From assembly GCF_000732325.1 (NCBI RefSeq), contig NZ_BBIW01000005.1, positions 248,001 through 312,000 on the forward strand: a stretch of 64,000 nucleotides of DNA. The letters are read 5' to 3'. The notes under the pieces are model-generated. The model saw only the letters and a list, made by a program, of their open reading frames with translations. It was not told the origin of the DNA and did not search any database. Made by a program: the position numbers and the translations under genes. Shown piece after piece: positions 16,684-57,281 of the stretch (position 1 is its first letter; each line of letters starts with the position of its first letter). The stretch comes from Paenibacillus sp. TCA20 (GTDB lineage Bacteria > Bacillota > Bacilli > Paenibacillales > Paenibacillaceae).

Positions 16684-16952
16684 CAAAAAAACCCCGTCTC
16701 TGCAATAGAGACGAGGTTGAACCCGCGGTACCACTCTAATTTCATTCCACTGGGGTGAAATGAACTCCTTCGATGGCCATCACCATCTATCCTTGTAACG
16801 GCGGAAACCCGGTTTCCCCTACATGTCAGGAAAACTGTTCATAGACGAGTTCAAAGCAATCGAACCTGCCGTTTCGCACCAACCAACGGCTCTCTGAAAG
16901 GTCTCATGGCTTCTACTAATTCTAATCAGCACATTTAAATGATTTGAAATTA
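16684..16952 (-). promoter_or_regulatory. Leucine-specific T-box leader
   Basis: The leader of leuA has the T-box core AGAGTGGTACCGCG (16737-16724), which pairs with an uncharged tRNA acceptor end. A terminator hairpin follows (AACCTCGTCTCT, loop ATTGC, AGAGACGGGGTT; 16718-16690) with a run of seven T. In stem I, GAACTCGTC carries a CTC specifier codon at 16849-16847, matching tRNA-Leu. Uncharged tRNA-Leu would favour the antiterminator and switch on leuA and the epimerase gene. Family features are established; the specifier reading is by eye. Confidence 0.93.
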
Positions 16953-50339: not shown

Positions 50340-51245
50340 TTAGATAGATTGACGAGCAGCAATATATTCTGGTCTTGGATCCTGTCCTGAATACGGTTCT
50401 ACGACCTTATTTTCAACACTATTATATACCATGAAAATATTACTTCGCGGGTAAGGCGTTATATTGCTGTTCGATCCGTGCATAATGTTACAATCGAACA
50501 AGAGTATAGAGCCAGCTTTACCTACAGGTGTATCTATCCCGTTTTTCTTAACCATTTGGCTCAAGCTATCTGGATCAGGAACACCATATTCTTGTTTTCT
50601 TAACGAATCTTTAAAATGATTTTCAGGAGTACGGCCGATACATGCCACAAATTGTTTGTGAGAACCGGGAACCACCATAAGCGGTCCATTGAAATGATAA
50701 TTATCTTCCAACGCAAAGGAGCAGCTTAATGCTCTCATACGCGGCATTCCATCCTCCACATGCCAGGTTTCAAAGTCGGAATGCCAATAGAATTCTTTCC
50801 CTGTAAAACCAGGCTTGTAATTGATACGAGATTGATGTATATAGGTCTTGCTTCCGAGTAAATAGTCTGTGATCGCAACTATTCTAGCATGCTTTGAGAG
50901 ATTCACGAATACCGAATTGCTGTTATGAACGGCAAATACAGACCGTACCTCGTCACCACCTGGCTCACGAATAATTCTGTCATCCTGGATATTGCTCACT
51001 TGTTCTTTCAAATTTCTGGCTTCAGTCTGATAATGCTGTAATTCATCTTCATCGAAAAAGTTCTCTATAAACAAATAGCCATTGCGCTCATAGAAGTCTG
51101 ACTGTTCCTTGGAAATAGGAGCTTGGGTGGACCATTCCGAATAGAGGACTGGATCCTTTCTGTTCAAAATTTTTGGCTCCAAGTGGATTCTAGAAGGATA
51201 AAGGTCTTTTTGTTCTTCATGTAAGGCAGATAATTTTTTGTTCAT
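50340..51245 (-). CDS. ectD: Ectoine 5-hydroxylase
   Basis: A 301-residue Fe(II)/2-oxoglutarate dioxygenase that converts ectoine to 5-hydroxyectoine. The facial triad is visible: His and Asp in FYWHSDFETWHVEDGMPRMR, distal His in LLFDCNIMHGSNSN; GPLMVVPGSHK and YPRSNIFMVYN are EctD hallmarks. The N-terminus YPSRIHLEPKILNRKDPVLY is also EctD-like. ATG 51245, downstream of AAGGAGA, is used; the frame is open to 51305 but would overlap ectC. Last gene of the operon; gives hydroxyectoine as a heat- and desiccation-protective solute. Confidence 0.95.
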   Translation of the reverse strand: MNKKLSALHEEQKDLYPSRIHLEPKILNRKDPVLYSEWSTQAPISKEQSDFYERNGYLFIENFFDEDELQHYQTEARNLKEQVSNIQDDRIIREPGGDEVRSVFAVHNSNSVFVNLSKHARIVAITDYLLGSKTYIHQSRINYKPGFTGKEFYWHSDFETWHVEDGMPRMRALSCSFALEDNYHFNGPLMVVPGSHKQFVACIGRTPENHFKDSLRKQEYGVPDPDSLSQMVKKNGIDTPVGKAGSILLFDCNIMHGSNSNITPYPRSNIFMVYNSVENKVVEPYSGQDPRPEYIAARQSI

Positions 51246-51273
51246 GACAATAACATCTCCTTCGAATGAATTT

Positions 51274-51651
51274 TTAAAGCAGGGGATACGTTCCTTCTTC
51301 GTCATGCACTTCTGCTCCAGTCAGCGGAGGATTAAAGACACACACCATTCGCATATGGCTGCGAGCTCTAAGATAATGCTTTTCATGACCATCCAAAGCA
51401 TACATCATGCCTGGAGAGATCCGATACGTTTCTCCTCCTATTACCTCGATCTCACCTTCACCTTCGATGCAATACACTGCTTCTACATGGTTTTTGTACC
51501 AAATTAACGTCTCTGTTCCCGCTTTGATTAGCGTATCATTCAGTGAAAATCCCATGCCATCCTTCGTCAACAGCAATCTTCTTGAATTCCAAGTTTGTGT
51601 ATCAATGTCATCCTTCGAATGAATAATTTCTTCTAAATGCTTAACGATCAT
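51274..51651 (-). CDS. ectC: Ectoine synthase
   Basis: A 125-residue cupin enzyme closing N-gamma-acetyl-diaminobutyrate to ectoine. EctC signature: [67 protein letters not shown] and [21 protein letters not shown]. The Tyr/Glu/His metal-binding set typical of the family is present. ATG overlaps the ectB stop by 4 nt. Length is standard. Confidence 0.97.
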
Positions 51652-52940
51652 GTTAACCTCTCCTCTTTAGCTAATTGGTCTATACTGTTCTTAAATATCT
51701 CAAGTCCCTTTTCCAAGAATTCCAGCTCTATCGTAAGTGGAGGCATAATTTTTGCTACCTCACTGTAAGGACCTGATGTTTCCATTATCAATCCATGTTC
51801 AAATGCGATCTCTGATAATCTTCCAGCGTGTTCGGGCTTGTCAAAAACAAGCCCCTGAATCATGCCTCTGCCGCGGGACTGAACGATAAGCTCAGGGTAC
51901 TGAATTGAGATACTTTCTAATGTACTGCGAATCTGATGTTCTCGAATCCCAATATCCAGCTGAAAGTCCTTCGTTTCCCAATAGTTTAGAGCTTCCGCTG
52001 CTGCGACGAATCCAAGATTATTACCTCTAAACGTTCCATTATGCTCGCCAGGCTGCCAGATATCGATCTCTGGTTTTATCAGGGTTAGCGCCATTGGAAG
52101 GCCGTATCCACCAATGGATTTTGAAAGGCAGATAATATCAGGCTCGATCCCTGCGTCATCAAAACTGAAGAATGTACCTGTTCTGCCGCATCCCATCTGT
52201 ATATCATCCAGGATCAGAAGAATTCCTTTCTTTTTGCACAGCCGCTCAAGATTACGTAGCCATTCCCTACTAGCAGCATTCAGACCACCCTCTCCCTGCA
52301 CGGCTTCAACGATGATTGCAGCTGGAAGTGGTATGCCGCTCCCTGGATCATCAAGCATTTTCTCCATATACCGAATTGTATCTACCCCTGAACCGAAGTA
52401 ACCATCGTACGGCATAAATATGGAGTGGTTCAGATCTACTCCAGCACCTTGCCTTTTAAAGGCATTTCCTGTAACAGACAGGGAGCCGAGTGACATACCG
52501 TGAAATGCATTTGTAAAACATAGAACCGTGGATCTCTTAGTCACTTTGCGCGCAATCTTTAAGGCAGATTCAACGGCGTTGGTTCCTGTTGGACCGGGAA
52601 ACATCACTTTATGATCCCATTCTCTAGGCTTCAGAATCACCTCCTTGAAACGGGTCAAGAAATGTTCCTTCGCGTCTGTTGCCATATCAAGGCTATGGGT
52701 AACTCCATCACGCATCATATAATCAATCAGCTTGTTACGAATTATTTCATTATTGTGACCGTAATTCAGGGCACCGGCCCCTGCGAAAAAATCGATATAC
52801 TCGTTCCCCTGTGTATCCCACAATCTCGAATTTTTTGCCTTATCAAAGACGGTTTGGAAACTACGGCAATAACTCCTCACTTCCGATTCCATTTCATTAA
52901 ACACAGTTAACTTCGGCATCTCCATGACTTGATTATCCAT
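51648..52940 (-). CDS. ectB: L-2,4-diaminobutyrate transaminase
   Basis: A 430-residue class III PLP aminotransferase that makes diaminobutyrate from aspartate semialdehyde and glutamate. EctB features: [78 protein letters not shown], and the PLP Lys in [25 protein letters not shown] precedes the ATG. Second synthesis gene of the operon. Confidence 0.96.
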
Positions 52941-52957: not shown

Positions 52958-53470
52958 TTAAATGTCATTAAAAAAAGGACCTATAACAAAAAGCGGCTCA
53001 TCCTCATGAATTGACTCGTTTGGAAACAGTTCTTTTCCATAGCCCACTGTGACCGTGCTAGGTATTGACTTCTCTTCGGCAAAGCTTAGAAATAACCGGC
53101 GAGAGGCCATGTTGCTCGGTGATACAGTAGCTTCAATGAATCGAACTCCTTGCATCGTCCTATGTTTAAGCAATCTAGTTAGCATAGACTTGGCAATGCC
53201 TTGTCTCCGATGAGAAGAAGCGACAGCTACCTGCCATACAAACAAGGTTTCCGGATTTCTCGGTGAGCGAAAGGCAGATATGAAACCAACTATATTTTCA
53301 TCATCTTCTGCAACAATACAGGTATCTTTGAAATAATCCCCGAGCATCATGTAGCAATACGGCGAATTCAGATCAAGTGATCCCGTTCCTCGAATTAATT
53401 CCCATATCCGGCTTCCATCTTCTGCTGCCGGCTGTCGGTACGTCACTTCTTTTTGAGTGTTTACAGTCAT
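52958..53470 (-). CDS. ectA: L-2,4-diaminobutyrate acetyltransferase
   Basis: A 170-residue GNAT enzyme that acetylates diaminobutyrate at the gamma amine. EctA features: [60 protein letters not shown] (acetyl-CoA site) and [23 protein letters not shown] 53470, after AAAGGAGGAGCAAG, is chosen over 53488. It follows ehuA by 30 nt with no terminator, so import and synthesis genes form one operon. Confidence 0.95.
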
Positions 53471-53500
53471 CTTGCTCCTCCTTTCCATTAATATCAGAAT

Positions 53501-54349
53501 TCAATTGGATTCTCCTCCAGAACGGAATCGTGCAAGAAAGCTTTGCAGACGCTCACTCTGAGGATGATCAAAAATTTCCTCCGGTGTTCCCTGTTCAACG
53601 ATTACTCCTTCTGCACCGAAGATTACCCGATCAGCAATATCCTTTGCGAAATCCATTTCATGAGTGATGAGCATCATGGCCATCTCCCCTTCTTCCGCGA
53701 TCTCACGAATAACCTCTAGTACTTCTCCTACAAGTTCGGGGTCGAGAGCTGAGGTAACTTCGTCAAATACCATTACTTTTGGCCGCATGACTAGTGCCCT
53801 TGCTATCGCCACTCGCTGCTTTTGGCCACCTGACAAGCTTGCAGGGTACATCTTTAACTTATCAGCAAGACCTACCTTACCAAGCATAGAAATGGCTCTT
53901 TCCTCGGCCTCCGCTTTAGATAAACCAAGCACCTTTCTTGGAGCTTCTGTTACATTGCGAAGTACGTTCATATGTGGAAACAGATTGAAATGTTGAAAAA
54001 TCATACCGACATTACAGCGCATTTTGTGAAGATGCTTTTCATTCGCCCGAATGATCCGTCCTTTATCCTCCATGTGCCATAGCAGTTCGCCGTCAACCTC
54101 AATGGTTCCTTGGGTTGGCTCTTCAAGCGTCATGAGCATTCGCCCCAATGTGGTTTTACCTGAACCACTTGGTCCAATGACAGCCACTTTTTCACCAGGT
54201 CTTATTTCCAGGTCAATGCCCTTCAGCACTTCCACATCTCCGAAGGATTTGGTTACACCGCTATATTTCACGATCGGGTTCATTTCGGTATTTGTCGTAC
54301 CCCCTCGTACTGTGCTTAAATCAGTACCTTTCAGAATGACTGAGCTCAC
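53501..54349 (-). CDS. ehuA: Ectoine/hydroxyectoine ABC transporter ATP-binding protein
   Basis: A 282-residue polar-amino-acid-type ATPase. Walker [16 protein letters not shown]-loop [12 protein letters not shown], signature [17 protein letters not shown], Walker [15 protein letters not shown], switch His LITHEMDFA. It powers uptake through the two adjacent permeases. Start GTG, placed by AGGAGG at 8 nt. EhuA identity follows from EhuB-type features of the binding protein and from the ect genes downstream. Confidence 0.92.
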
Positions 54350-54366: not shown

Positions 54367-55029
54367 TTATTTTCCTCGTTGCAGATTAAGTCTTTTCTCT
54401 ACTTGCTGCACCAGCAAAGACGAAACATAGCTAATGATCAAGAACAATATGCCAACAAGTGTATAAGGTTCAAATGCCCGAAACGACTCGGACACGATGT
54501 TTTTGGCTGTCAGCATCAGCTCAACTACTGTGATCGCACTCAGAATCGGTGTTTCTTTAAACATGACAATTAAGTAATTGCCCAATACCGGGATAATGGG
54601 AGGAATCGCCTGAGGTAAAATAATGGTGCGCCAGGTTTGTGCCTTTGTATAGTTCAGTGCAGTCGCTGCTTCCCATTGCCCCTTATCCACTGCTTCAATA
54701 CCTGATCTGTACACTTCTGATAAATAAGTGCTGTAGTGAAGGCCAAGTCCGATTACGCCTGCATAGAACGCAGGAATGGATAAATTCGTGATCAACGGCA
54801 GGCTGTAGTATAGGAAGAAGACCTGCACCAGTAATGGTGTGTTTCTTACAAATTCAATAATTCCTTTGGTGATCAGCGAGATCGGTTTGAATTTGCTTCG
54901 AGCAGCAAAGGCGAGGAGAAGCCCCACAATTAGTGCCAGGACAAAGGCGCAAAGCGTAATCCATACCGTCATTTGGAGAGCACCAATCAGTTCCGGCAAA
55001 ATTTCAACGACATAATTCCAATCCCACAT
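54367..55029 (-). CDS. ehuD: Ectoine/hydroxyectoine ABC transporter permease EhuD
   Basis: A 220-residue HisM/GlnP-type permease, five TM segments. N-terminus [20 protein letters not shown] is EhuD-like; EAA-type loop [20 protein letters not shown] then [20 protein letters not shown]. Ends with [20 protein letters not shown] precedes the ATG. Forms the membrane pore with EhuC. Confidence 0.9.
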
Positions 55030-55031
55030 GC

Positions 55032-55685
55032 TTACAACCTCCCCGCTGTCAGTTTACGCTCTAGCTGTCTGACTCCCATTGAAACGAGCGTAGTGATGAC
55101 AAAATACATGAGGAGCAGCAGAATAAGGATCTCCGTTGTCCAGGAAATGTAATTGTTGCGTAGAACCATCGCCTGATATGTCAAATCCGCCATCGTAATG
55201 AAATATACAAGTGAAGTCGACTTGATGAGCTCCACAAGCTGATTACCGAACGGAGGGAGCATCTGCATGGAGGCTTGGGGGAGAATAACGTTCCACAACC
55301 GCAGGCCAGGCTTCATATTTAATGCTGTTGCTGCCTCCCATTGTCCTTTCGGTACCGAGAGTACAGCACTTCGAACAATCTCTGATCCGTATGCACCATA
55401 ATTAAGTCCTACAGCAAGGATGGCAGCCAACATTTTTGGAAGCTCGATCCCGATGAACGGAAGTGCAAAATATAGCCAGAATAACTGAACAAGAAGTGAA
55501 GTTCCTCGAAATATCTCAACGTATATCGTAGTAAGAGTGCGAACGATCCATAGTTTAGACAAGCGGCAGAGCCCAGCCGCAAAGGCTACGATTAGAGCCA
55601 GAATTGCTGAAAAGAAAGCGACCGTTATTGTAATTTCTGCCCCTTTCAGCAGGGTTGGGAGAAAATCAAGCCATGAACTTGGCAT
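55032..55685 (-). CDS. ehuC: Ectoine/hydroxyectoine ABC transporter permease EhuC
   Basis: A 217-residue HisM/GlnP-type permease. Start SSWLDFLPTLLKGAEITITV, then VRTLTTIYVEIFRGTSLLVQ and the EAA-type loop [20 protein letters not shown] with WNVILPQASMQMLPPFGN. It begins 1 nt after the ehuB stop and is followed 2 nt later by ehuD, so the three are tightly coupled. Confidence 0.9.
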   Translation of the reverse strand: MPSSWLDFLPTLLKGAEITITVAFFSAILALIVAFAAGLCRLSKLWIVRTLTTIYVEIFRGTSLLVQLFWLYFALPFIGIELPKMLAAILAVGLNYGAYGSEIVRSAVLSVPKGQWEAATALNMKPGLRLWNVILPQASMQMLPPFGNQLVELIKSTSLVYFITMADLTYQAMVLRNNYISWTTEILILLLLMYFVITTLVSMGVRQLERKLTAGRL

Positions 55686-55686
55686 G

Positions 55687-56586
55687 TTATTCTCCGCATA
55701 GGGCTGCAGCTGTCATTTCGCCTGGAAGCTCTTCTTCAGTAAATCCAAATTCCTGCAAAATTTCTAACAGCTCACCCGACTCCTTCATTTTTGTAAGCTC
55801 AGCATTGTATGCTTCTTGAAATTCCGTATCCGCCTGACGAAATGCTGTCGCTCCATACCCGCGGACACTCTCACCATCAATGACAGGCTGCTTGAAACCT
55901 TCAACACGTTCAATCTGATCATCGCTCGCGGACTCCAGCATAGCGGTAAGCGACGGACCTGTCATGGTGATCGCCTGTACTCTGTCTGCTTGCAAAGCAC
56001 TAATAGCTGAGGCTTGATCGGGAACCTGAACAATACGGTCAGAAGGAACTCCCGACTCTTCCATATAACCAATTTCTACAGCTCCTGTCATAACTGCTAC
56101 TTTGGCATTATCATCTGCCGCAATATCTTCATAGCTGGTTAGGTTAAGGGGATTCCCTTGTTTTACCGCGAGCGACTCCCCAATGCTGTATTCCGGATCT
56201 GCAAATAATACAGCTGAACAGCGATTAGGATTAATAAACATACCTGCCGTAATCATGTCAAAACGATCTGCTTGAAGACCCGCGATTAAAGAACCAAACT
56301 CTGTAAGCTCGCCCTTCATCTCTTTTACACCTAGTCTTTCTAGGATAACTTTTGCAATCTCGACGGCTTCGCCCGTTAGCTCTCCATTTTCGTCTTTATA
56401 GGCGTAAGGCTTCTCGTTAGCAAATCCCACCGTGATATATCCCTGATCAATCGCTTGATCAAGGGTGCTTCCTTTTTCCCCACATGCTGTCAATGACAAT
56501 ACCAAAACAGTTAACAATACAAGAATAACGCCCTTCTTCAAACATCCCACAACCTTTCCACGTTCTGTAATCTTGATAAATGGCAT
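55687..56586 (-). CDS. ehuB: Ectoine/hydroxyectoine-binding lipoprotein
   Basis: A 299-residue solute-binding protein. Lipoprotein signal KKGVILVLLTVLVLSLTAC; mature part is a type II binding fold with EhuB-family blocks AIDQGYITVGFANEKPYAYK, GELTGEAVEIAKVILERLGV, TEFGSLIAGLQADRFDMITA, GMFINPNRCSAVLFADPEYS and YGATAFRQADTEFQEAYNAE. It captures ectoine/hydroxyectoine outside the membrane. The start is unsure: ATG 56586 has a weak SD inside a hairpin; TTG at 56538, after GGAAAGG, would begin directly at LKKG. First gene behind the c-di-AMP riboswitch. Confidence 0.92.
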   Translation of the reverse strand: MPFIKITERGKVVGCLKKGVILVLLTVLVLSLTACGEKGSTLDQAIDQGYITVGFANEKPYAYKDENGELTGEAVEIAKVILERLGVKEMKGELTEFGSLIAGLQADRFDMITAGMFINPNRCSAVLFADPEYSIGESLAVKQGNPLNLTSYEDIAADDNAKVAVMTGAVEIGYMEESGVPSDRIVQVPDQASAISALQADRVQAITMTGPSLTAMLESASDDQIERVEGFKQPVIDGESVRGYGATAFRQADTEFQEAYNAELTKMKESGELLEILQEFGFTEEELPGEMTAAALCGE

Positions 56587-56597
56587 AGCAAAATTAA

Positions 56598-56623
56598 CCT
56601 AGTATATATATGTTTTTACTAGG
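56598..56623. repeat. Inverted repeat just before ehuB
   Basis: CCTAGTA (56598-56604) and TACTAGG (56617-56623), perfect 7-bp arms around a 12-nt AT-rich loop, ending 11 nt upstream of the ehuB ATG. In RNA its 3' arm contains the AGG that may serve as SD, so it could be a translational hairpin or a protein-binding dyad. Confidence 0.7.
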
Positions 56624-56807
56624 ATATTAAACATCAAAAAGTCACGAGTCAGTATGAAAACAAGCCCCAAACAAGTCCTTTTGATTTACTTGTACTCACC
56701 TAACTGACATTTTATGAGTTTCTTTCGTTTTTTCTCATGATCCCCCCTTGTAAAATTAAAAAATGACCGCCTATCCAGGGAACAAGACATAGCTCCGCCA
56801 GCAGGGG

Positions 56808-56852
56808 TCAAAATGAAGAAAAAGGCCCCCTTAGAATTAAAAAGGGCCTTTT
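56808..56852 (-). terminator. Expression-platform terminator of the c-di-AMP riboswitch
   Basis: On the minus strand AAAAGGCCC (56852-56844), loop of 15 nt, GGGCCTTTTT (56828-56819), then CTTCATTTTG. It sits about 30 nt past the aptamer and upstream of ehuB, so ligand binding can be coupled to termination. Confidence 0.85.
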
Positions 56853-56883
56853 GTGATGATATGCATTATGTATACAAGACCCA

Positions 56884-57012
56884 TCCACTGCTGACGAGGT
56901 TAGCTGACGGACTCGGGTAAGATGGTACCCTACACTCGAATTCAAGTGATTCGCCCCATTAATACTGGTTCCCCCGCTTTCCAGATTCTGTATCTGAAAA
57001 CTAAGCGTGATT
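56884..57012 (-). promoter_or_regulatory. ydaO/yuaA-type c-di-AMP riboswitch
   Basis: On the minus strand the aptamer core is nearly textbook: ATCACGCTTAG (57011-57001), GCGGGGGAACCA (56977-56966), GGGGCGAATC (56957-56948), GTAGGGTACC (near 56933-56924), and TTACCCGAGTCCGTCAGCTA with ACCTCG (56920-56895). These are the conserved blocks of the c-di-AMP-sensing ydaO/yuaA class, which usually acts as a genetic off switch. It begins right at the predicted transcription start and precedes an intrinsic terminator, with the ehuBCDA-ectABCD operon downstream. High c-di-AMP should thus reduce ectoine gene expression. Class is clear by motif; response not tested. Confidence 0.95.
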
Positions 57013-57014
57013 CC

Positions 57015-57043
57015 ATGATAAAGGGATGTTCTGGAAATGTCAA
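57015..57043 (-). promoter_or_regulatory. Promoter of the riboswitch-ehu-ect transcript
   Basis: TTGACA (57043-57038), 17-nt spacer, TATCAT (57020-57015). The predicted start falls at about 57008-57012, immediately at the aptamer 5' end. A second, ehuB-proximal promoter is not excluded. Confidence 0.82.
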
Positions 57044-57281
57044 ACCGATTTTATTGATTTTTTGGAAGAAACTCCGTGTTTTTTGCAATATACAACTGTT
57101 TTTATCCCACGTTATACTATTTCAACAAATGAATACAAACCCACATTATTCCTTTGTTTGTTAGGTCATAAGCAGTATAATCAGCCATACAAGTGCAGTA
57201 ACAGAATTAAATCATCAATACATAAACTATATAATTTTGTGTTGCAGTGACTCGTGACTAGGTATGTAAATGTATAAAGCC
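57044..57281. other. Spacer upstream of the riboswitch promoter
   Basis: No gene is seen. A 12-mer TGACTCGTGACT (57248-57259) is the exact inverse of AGTCACGAGTCA (56640-56651), so the riboswitch and its leader are bracketed by an inverted repeat some 600 bp apart. No target-site duplication or transposase is visible. Confidence 0.4.

Follow-up and report, generated by a model that had tools for sequence, protein, structure and literature searches.

The ehu–ect gene cluster

The DNA analysed here (the window) is a stretch of 64,000 nucleotides from Paenibacillus sp. TCA20, a soil bacterium. Its minus strand carries eight genes for the import and synthesis of ectoine. The import genes are ehuB (substrate-binding protein, 55687–56586, TIGR02995), ehuC (permease, 55032–55685, TIGR03004), ehuD (permease, 54367–55029, TIGR03003) and ehuA (ATPase, 53501–54349, TIGR03005); they are followed by ectA (52958–53488, TIGR02406), ectB (51648–52940, TIGR02407), ectC (51274–51651, NF009806) and the ectoine hydroxylase gene ectD (50340–51305, TIGR02408). 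All eight score above their NCBIfam cut-offs, which bears out the complete operon recognised in a first-pass annotation of this DNA. The genes are closely spaced, and their order is that of the published Paenibacillus ehuBCDA-ectABCD operon, likewise without ectR; in the accessible text of the same 2019 paper, ehuBCDA lies beside ect in 37 of 41 ect-bearing Paenibacillus (PMC6915088). The gene ehuB probably starts at TTG 56541 rather than at ATG 56586. This TTG is preceded by a Shine–Dalgarno-like GGAAAGG, and several homologues align only from query residue 16; others align from residues 1–15.

No MarR-type ectR was found beside the operon among the listed open reading frames of at least 90 aa, of which three HTH regulators were scanned with profiles and the others assessed from the translated sequence. 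The three scanned neighbours are a response regulator with an AraC domain, a protein of the AraC type and one of the HxlR type; none belongs to the MarR or GntR type, in agreement with the earlier remark that EctR- and EnuR-type regulators are absent here. The accompanying claim that ectoine operons are more often tied to such regulators does not hold: PMC5924519, in the part available, counts 510 putative producers and places ectR beside the ect genes of 97, in the Alpha-, Beta- and Gammaproteobacteria; the available part of PMC8739950 assigns EnuR to catabolic clusters.

Promoter and aptamer

Upstream of ehuB lies a c-di-AMP (ydaO/yuaA) riboswitch aptamer (57017–56874, minus strand). In a scan with Rfam covariance models it matched RF00379 over model positions 1–134 of 134, with 81.6 bits and an E value of 2e-17 (gathering score 38), and it contains both conserved-core sequences of the family, GGGGGAACC and CCGUCAGCUAACCUCG; the initial description of a near-textbook aptamer was correct. 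The promoter, TTGACA-17-TATCAT (57043–57015, minus strand), has 11 of 12 consensus bases, and the start of the aptamer at a consensus promoter is thereby confirmed; transcription is estimated to begin at about 57008, at the 5′ edge of the aptamer. By pattern count, the promoter form TTGAC[AT]-17-TA[TC]NAT recurs in 16 of 16 distinct leaders, which represent 27 loci from two collections, most of the whole-genome loci duplicating species present as named contigs. That the riboswitch is decayed or non-functional is scarcely credible in view of its high score and the retention of the promoter, the aptamer core and both hairpins described below across the 16 distinct leaders.

The 3′ part of the aptamer contains a candidate pseudoknot (56881–56925, minus strand), in which the loop CCAUCU (56925–56920) is complementary to the 3′ tail GGAUGG (56886–56881). 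The loop:tail complementarity score averages 13.91 among 139 distinct RF00379 members, against 11.53 ± 0.19 with tails permuted (maximum 12.09 in 500 permutations), a comparison that ignores kinship, many of these members being related. Such a pseudoknot would keep GGAUGG held in the folded aptamer of the window. Complementarity and folding also delineate a shared switching strand (56905–56876, minus strand), consisting of AGCU (56905–56902), UCGUCAGCAG (56897–56888) and GGGUCUU (56882–56876).

Terminators

Two terminator hairpins follow the aptamer on the minus strand. The first, T1 (56852–56820), has a left arm AAGGCCC (56850–56844) complementary to GGGUCUU; its stability of −17.2 kcal/mol was equalled by none of 200 shuffles. 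The second, T2 (56809–56758), has a stem at 56809–56765 and a U-run at 56763–56758; its left arm, GACCCCUGCUGGCGGAGCU, can pair with the 3′ strand of the aptamer over about 19 bp. The first-pass annotation had an intrinsic terminator after the aptamer, which stands as T1, and no other terminator ahead of the operon, which is contradicted by T2. T2 sits just beyond the span 56808–57043 to which that annotation referred.

Patterns for T1 and T2 were each found in 16 of 16 distinct leaders. T2 was scored by a pattern that includes leaders ending TGGTGGTC-T5 in the ehu leaders, and by eye in the aminomutase leaders discussed below. In the alignment of the 16 leaders the left arm of T2, GACCCC-UGCUGGCGGAGCUAUG, is near-invariant and its right arm is variable. 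The left arm differs in the number of Cs and, in L010 and L016, in one further base; it is the longest near-invariant stretch 3′ of the aptamer.

Folding and the candidate switched terminator

When the window leader is folded as far as T2, without ligand or constraints, AGCU, UCGUCAGCAG and GGGUC pair with the left arm of T2 over 19 bp, enclosing T1. The same or nearly the same duplex forms in the 14 ehu leaders examined by duplex folding, at −24.1 to −26.3 kcal/mol, and each is equalled by 0–13 of 200 mononucleotide shuffles. The corresponding duplexes of one ectD and 12 aminomutase-type leaders, at −16.5 to −23.3 kcal/mol, are unexceptional, with 14–122 of 200 shuffles equalling them.

Ligand-free folding was carried out on 15 of the 16 distinct leaders (L015 was left out), in a model without pseudoknots, ligand or kinetics. 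Pairing of the core with the T2 left arm lies below T2 by 1.1–8.4 kcal/mol in all 15, with an advantage of only 1.1 kcal/mol in the window leader, and T2 is missing from the minimum in every case. T1, by contrast, lies below its antiterminator by 1.7–13.5 kcal/mol in 15 of 15 leaders, so readthrough past T1 would need kinetics or leakiness. Since core pairing beats T2 while T1 beats its antiterminator, T2 is more likely than T1 to be the terminator under c-di-AMP control, and T1 would form a first gate. As regards an expression platform exclusive with the aptamer, T2 is mutually exclusive in silico; for T1, exclusive pairing is possible but disfavoured by folding.

T1 had originally been taken as the switched terminator, in which case T2 would be a mere backup hairpin. 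T1 does lie directly 3′ of the aptamer with a left arm complementary to GGGUCUU, and several aminomutase leaders, judged by eye, have T1 without a clear T2, so that in those leaders T1 can probably be the switch. For the ehu leaders we nevertheless consider control by T1 alone unlikely, given the consistent loss of its antiterminator in folding and the near-invariance of a T2 left arm that a mere backup would not need.

Covariation between the GGGUC extension and the T1 left arm was scored in 24 distinct leaders. The score was 0.205, against a shuffled mean of 0.150, with 4 of 500 shuffles as high, and both U-A and A-U were seen at positions 6, 7 and 8. The other measures were weaker or null: 30 of 500 shuffles equalled the count of paired cells and 34 that of cells changed on both sides, and the numbers were 491 for pairs altered on both sides and 229 for further pair types. 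For contiguous pairs the permutation fraction was 0.0003 in all 24 leaders, 0.07 in the 13 aminomutase rows and 0.45 in the 11 rows of ehu, ectD and L086 leaders; as the within-group fractions are weak, the signal lies mainly between groups. The T2 left arm gives no covariation in the ehu leaders because it hardly varies there.

The region between T2 and ehuB

A 26-bp dyad, CCTAGTAAAAACATATATATACTAGG (56598–56623), lies between T2 and ehuB, with counterparts in 13 of the 16 distinct leaders, and a promoter-like site with 9 of 12 bases is found at 56630–56601. Both would suit a second promoter or operator that gives most of the ehu–ect transcript under salt stress, leaving the c-di-AMP switch as a minor input. 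We regard this as improbable: promoter-like sites between T2 and ehuB are about as frequent as expected by chance (23 against 19.5), and the dyad is absent from three of the 16 leaders. Allowing up to two mismatches to the pattern used, the dyad occurs nowhere else in the genome, and it was rejected as the operator of a regulon; it may be an RNA hairpin or an operator of this locus alone.

No Rfam family came near threshold in 56540–56900, and the idea that the T2 region holds an aptamer of known type, for Na+ or otherwise, was accordingly discarded. The Na+-I (DUF1646) aptamer had no Rfam match in the window at the gathering threshold and none in 56540–56900 up to E 10. Just 3′ of T2 there is an 8-codon open reading frame (56712–56738, minus strand) with a strong Shine–Dalgarno-like AAGGGGGG; it is a possible leader peptide, and its stretch is unconserved in the leader alignment. 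A weak structured element (z −1.85) occupies 56709–56648. The whole leader is flanked by a 12-bp exact inverted repeat, TGACTCGTGACT, with two exact copies in the window (56640–56651 and 57248–57259).

Proposed mechanism

We consider it fairly probable that the leader is a c-di-AMP OFF switch acting through T1 and then T2 over one ehuBCDA-ectABCD transcription unit for the uptake and synthesis of ectoine and hydroxyectoine, a single transcript presumably reaching ectD. The transcript would begin at the 5′ edge of the aptamer. With c-di-AMP bound, the aptamer would keep its 3′ strand AGCUAACCUCGUCAGCAG and the loop–tail pseudoknot would keep the tail GGAUGG; with strand and tail sequestered, T1 and then T2 would form and transcription would end. 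At low c-di-AMP, the freed AGCU/UCGUCAGCAG/GGGUC would pair with GACCC/CUGCUGGCGG/AGCU of the T2 left arm. This pairing would disrupt both the aptamer and T2, and polymerase already beyond T1 would continue into ehuB. T1 itself would be a first gate, either leaky or opened co-transcriptionally through GGGUCUU:AAGGCCC.

Published members of the class terminate upon binding, according to the available text of PMC9960051 and PMC9337991. The OFF direction of the c-di-AMP-controlled termination first suggested for this locus fits them, and T1 as its switched terminator does not fit the folding; permission of operon transcription by low c-di-AMP would likewise be in keeping with the class. That high osmolarity lowers c-di-AMP in Paenibacillus sp. 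TCA20 is an assumption. If the mechanism is true, ectoine uptake and synthesis would come under the messenger that in Firmicutes already controls potassium and other osmolytes, which would explain how these Paenibacillus operons, lacking EctR, could register osmotic conditions. Two serial terminators worked by one aptamer would, moreover, offer a low-leak control design open to direct testing.

Relation to known systems

The riboswitch belongs to a known class, is real, and stands on a known operon. With the RF00379 class it shares the aptamer, an OFF-type layout with an intrinsic terminator and an osmolyte target; it differs in that a single aptamer is followed by two serial terminators, of which the second has a left arm able to pair with the core, and in its target, ectoine uptake and synthesis. 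Another close comparison is the Na+/c-di-AMP tandem of Dehalobacter ablA, also a c-di-AMP OFF switch on an osmolyte gene, in which, according to the available text, aptamer nucleotides of P1 and the pseudoknot pair with the left shoulder of the terminator (PMC9337991). The tandem has two aptamers with a terminator each, whereas in the window a single aptamer is followed by two terminators, and the search for a Na+ aptamer was negative. For the c-di-AMP riboswitch of C. glutamicum nlpC, the available part of PMC9960051 proposes a bound-state pseudoknot with the 3′ region, similar to the candidate pseudoknot of the window and possibly formed with the corresponding loop; unlike the window, that riboswitch exerts translational control and has no canonical terminator.

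The word ‘riboswitch’ does not occur in the main text of PMC6915088, as far as that text was available. In the portion of the open-licence literature that was sampled, no report of a riboswitch before ect or ehu genes was recognised. The abstract of Nelson 2013 reportedly names the synthesis and transport of osmoprotectants, and for this reason the association of ectoine genes with a riboswitch is not claimed as unpublished. Beyond the known are the pairing of aptamer and operon, the two-terminator platform and the shared leader family described below; the association may have been listed earlier.

Distribution among ehu and ect loci

The 17-mer CTGCTGGCGGAGCTATG (at most one mismatch) has matches in 65 of 394 Paenibacillaceae genomes. 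By coordinate comparison, 15 of the 70 genomes that encode EhuB have it 247–331 nt ahead of the ehuB match, namely those in which EhuB is at least 80% identical; the next genome has 74%. In the remaining EhuB-bearing genomes no match adjoins ehuB, and exact matches also occur in two genomes without an EhuB match (G406 and G435). Judged by these matches, the leader is a marker of a single clade within the family. The survey of other ect and ehu operons extended the association through this clade: with Rfam and 1.5-kb flanks, all 14 additional whole-genome loci of the clade (L147–L160) showed RF00379 upstream of ehuB, as against none of the 15 next-closest EhuB loci (L161–L175).

An EhuB scan of GTDB contigs gave 79 loci. 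When as much as 2.5 kb upstream of the match was scanned for the motif, the aptamer core appeared before ehuB in all 11 loci of the window clade (L009–L019) and in L049, L068, L070 and L073; in these last four Rfam confirmed the riboswitches. The core is absent before ehuB in the other 64 loci, two of which (L050, L057) have less than 450 nt upstream; an Rfam scan of ten of the 64 found no RF00379 upstream of ehuB. Fluoride riboswitches (RF01734) lie near ehuB in L030, L166, L168, L169 and L171, loci without the c-di-AMP riboswitch. L049 has ehu and ect; L068, L070 and L073 have ehu without adjacent ect. The ten clade members retained in a 66-row EhuB tree are grouped together (99/99); L010 and L011 were among the rows dropped as too short. 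The riboswitch label changes four times on this tree, with at least three changes forced by well-supported branches and L070 on a long branch of unsure place, which suggests that a few distant ehu operons acquired such riboswitches separately.

The survey of ectA comprised 30 loci fetched of 48 matches, two of them being the window and a clade member, whose riboswitches lie beyond the flank. Of the 28 others, all from class Bacilli, L194 alone carries RF00379, some 360 nt ahead of ectA.

Related leaders before ectD and aminomutase genes

In L125, a locus reached through a match of the 17-mer in a genome without an EhuB match, the aptamer, T1 and T2 precede a lone ectD-like gene, whose protein scores 334 bits, just below the TIGR02408 cut-off of 336.5. 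In L023, L029, L040 and L086 the riboswitch is situated behind ehu–ect instead of ahead of it; a KamA-family radical SAM gene comes next in L023, L029 and L086, and also in the genome of L040 (seen in L321). The KamA-family gene is present in 15 of 36 chosen genomes, in 16 copies, and a c-di-AMP aptamer with the tail GAUGGGUC lies upstream of 14 of these 16 (L317–L330; L317, L319 and L321 repeat the genes of L029, L023 and the genome of L040). Judged by eye, 7 of the 14 leaders have a clear second hairpin with a U-run. The protein scores above the KamA subfamily cut-off; as it falls below those of lysine and glutamate aminomutases, a beta-amino-acid osmolyte as its product is a guess.

In a comparison of 142 distinct aptamers, the closest to that of the window, its own copy aside, belong to other ehu leaders and then to aminomutase and ectD leaders, at 82–85% identity. 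The aptamer of L019 is 96% identical yet scored lower, probably through the stretch extracted. At E 1e-60, the aminomutase is absent from the window genome and from seven relatives in its clade (G001–G007). Capture of an aminomutase leader by ehu would be a plausible origin of the operon's leader.

A wider proposal, to which we give slightly less than an even chance, is that a Paenibacillaceae subfamily of c-di-AMP riboswitches, with the tail GAUGGGUC and often a two-terminator platform, would be a mobile osmolyte-supply module. It would serve KamA-family aminomutases, possibly for beta-amino-acid osmolytes, a lone ectD and, in one clade, the whole of ehu–ect; two serial gates would give a tight OFF state, and the 19-bp strand swap would dissolve the aptamer and lock the ON state. 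If true, the reuse of a leader before three kinds of gene would indicate how riboswitches spread between pathways.

Other riboswitches of the window and genome

The genome of the window has eight RF00379 members and three diadenylate cyclase domains. Its other members in the set (L004 excluded) score far lower against the window aptamer. Elsewhere in the window, a T-box leader (RF00230, 130.4 bits) is found at 16704–16938 on the minus strand. Two of the genome's c-di-AMP riboswitches (L001, L005) stand in tandem, 138 nt apart, at C27:119933–120452. Two further aptamers, L006 and L007, lie directly before NlpC/P60 genes (PF00877); their tail GGAAGG is complementary to the loop CCUUC and could be a ribosome-binding site, and the pair is possibly a translational version of the switch.
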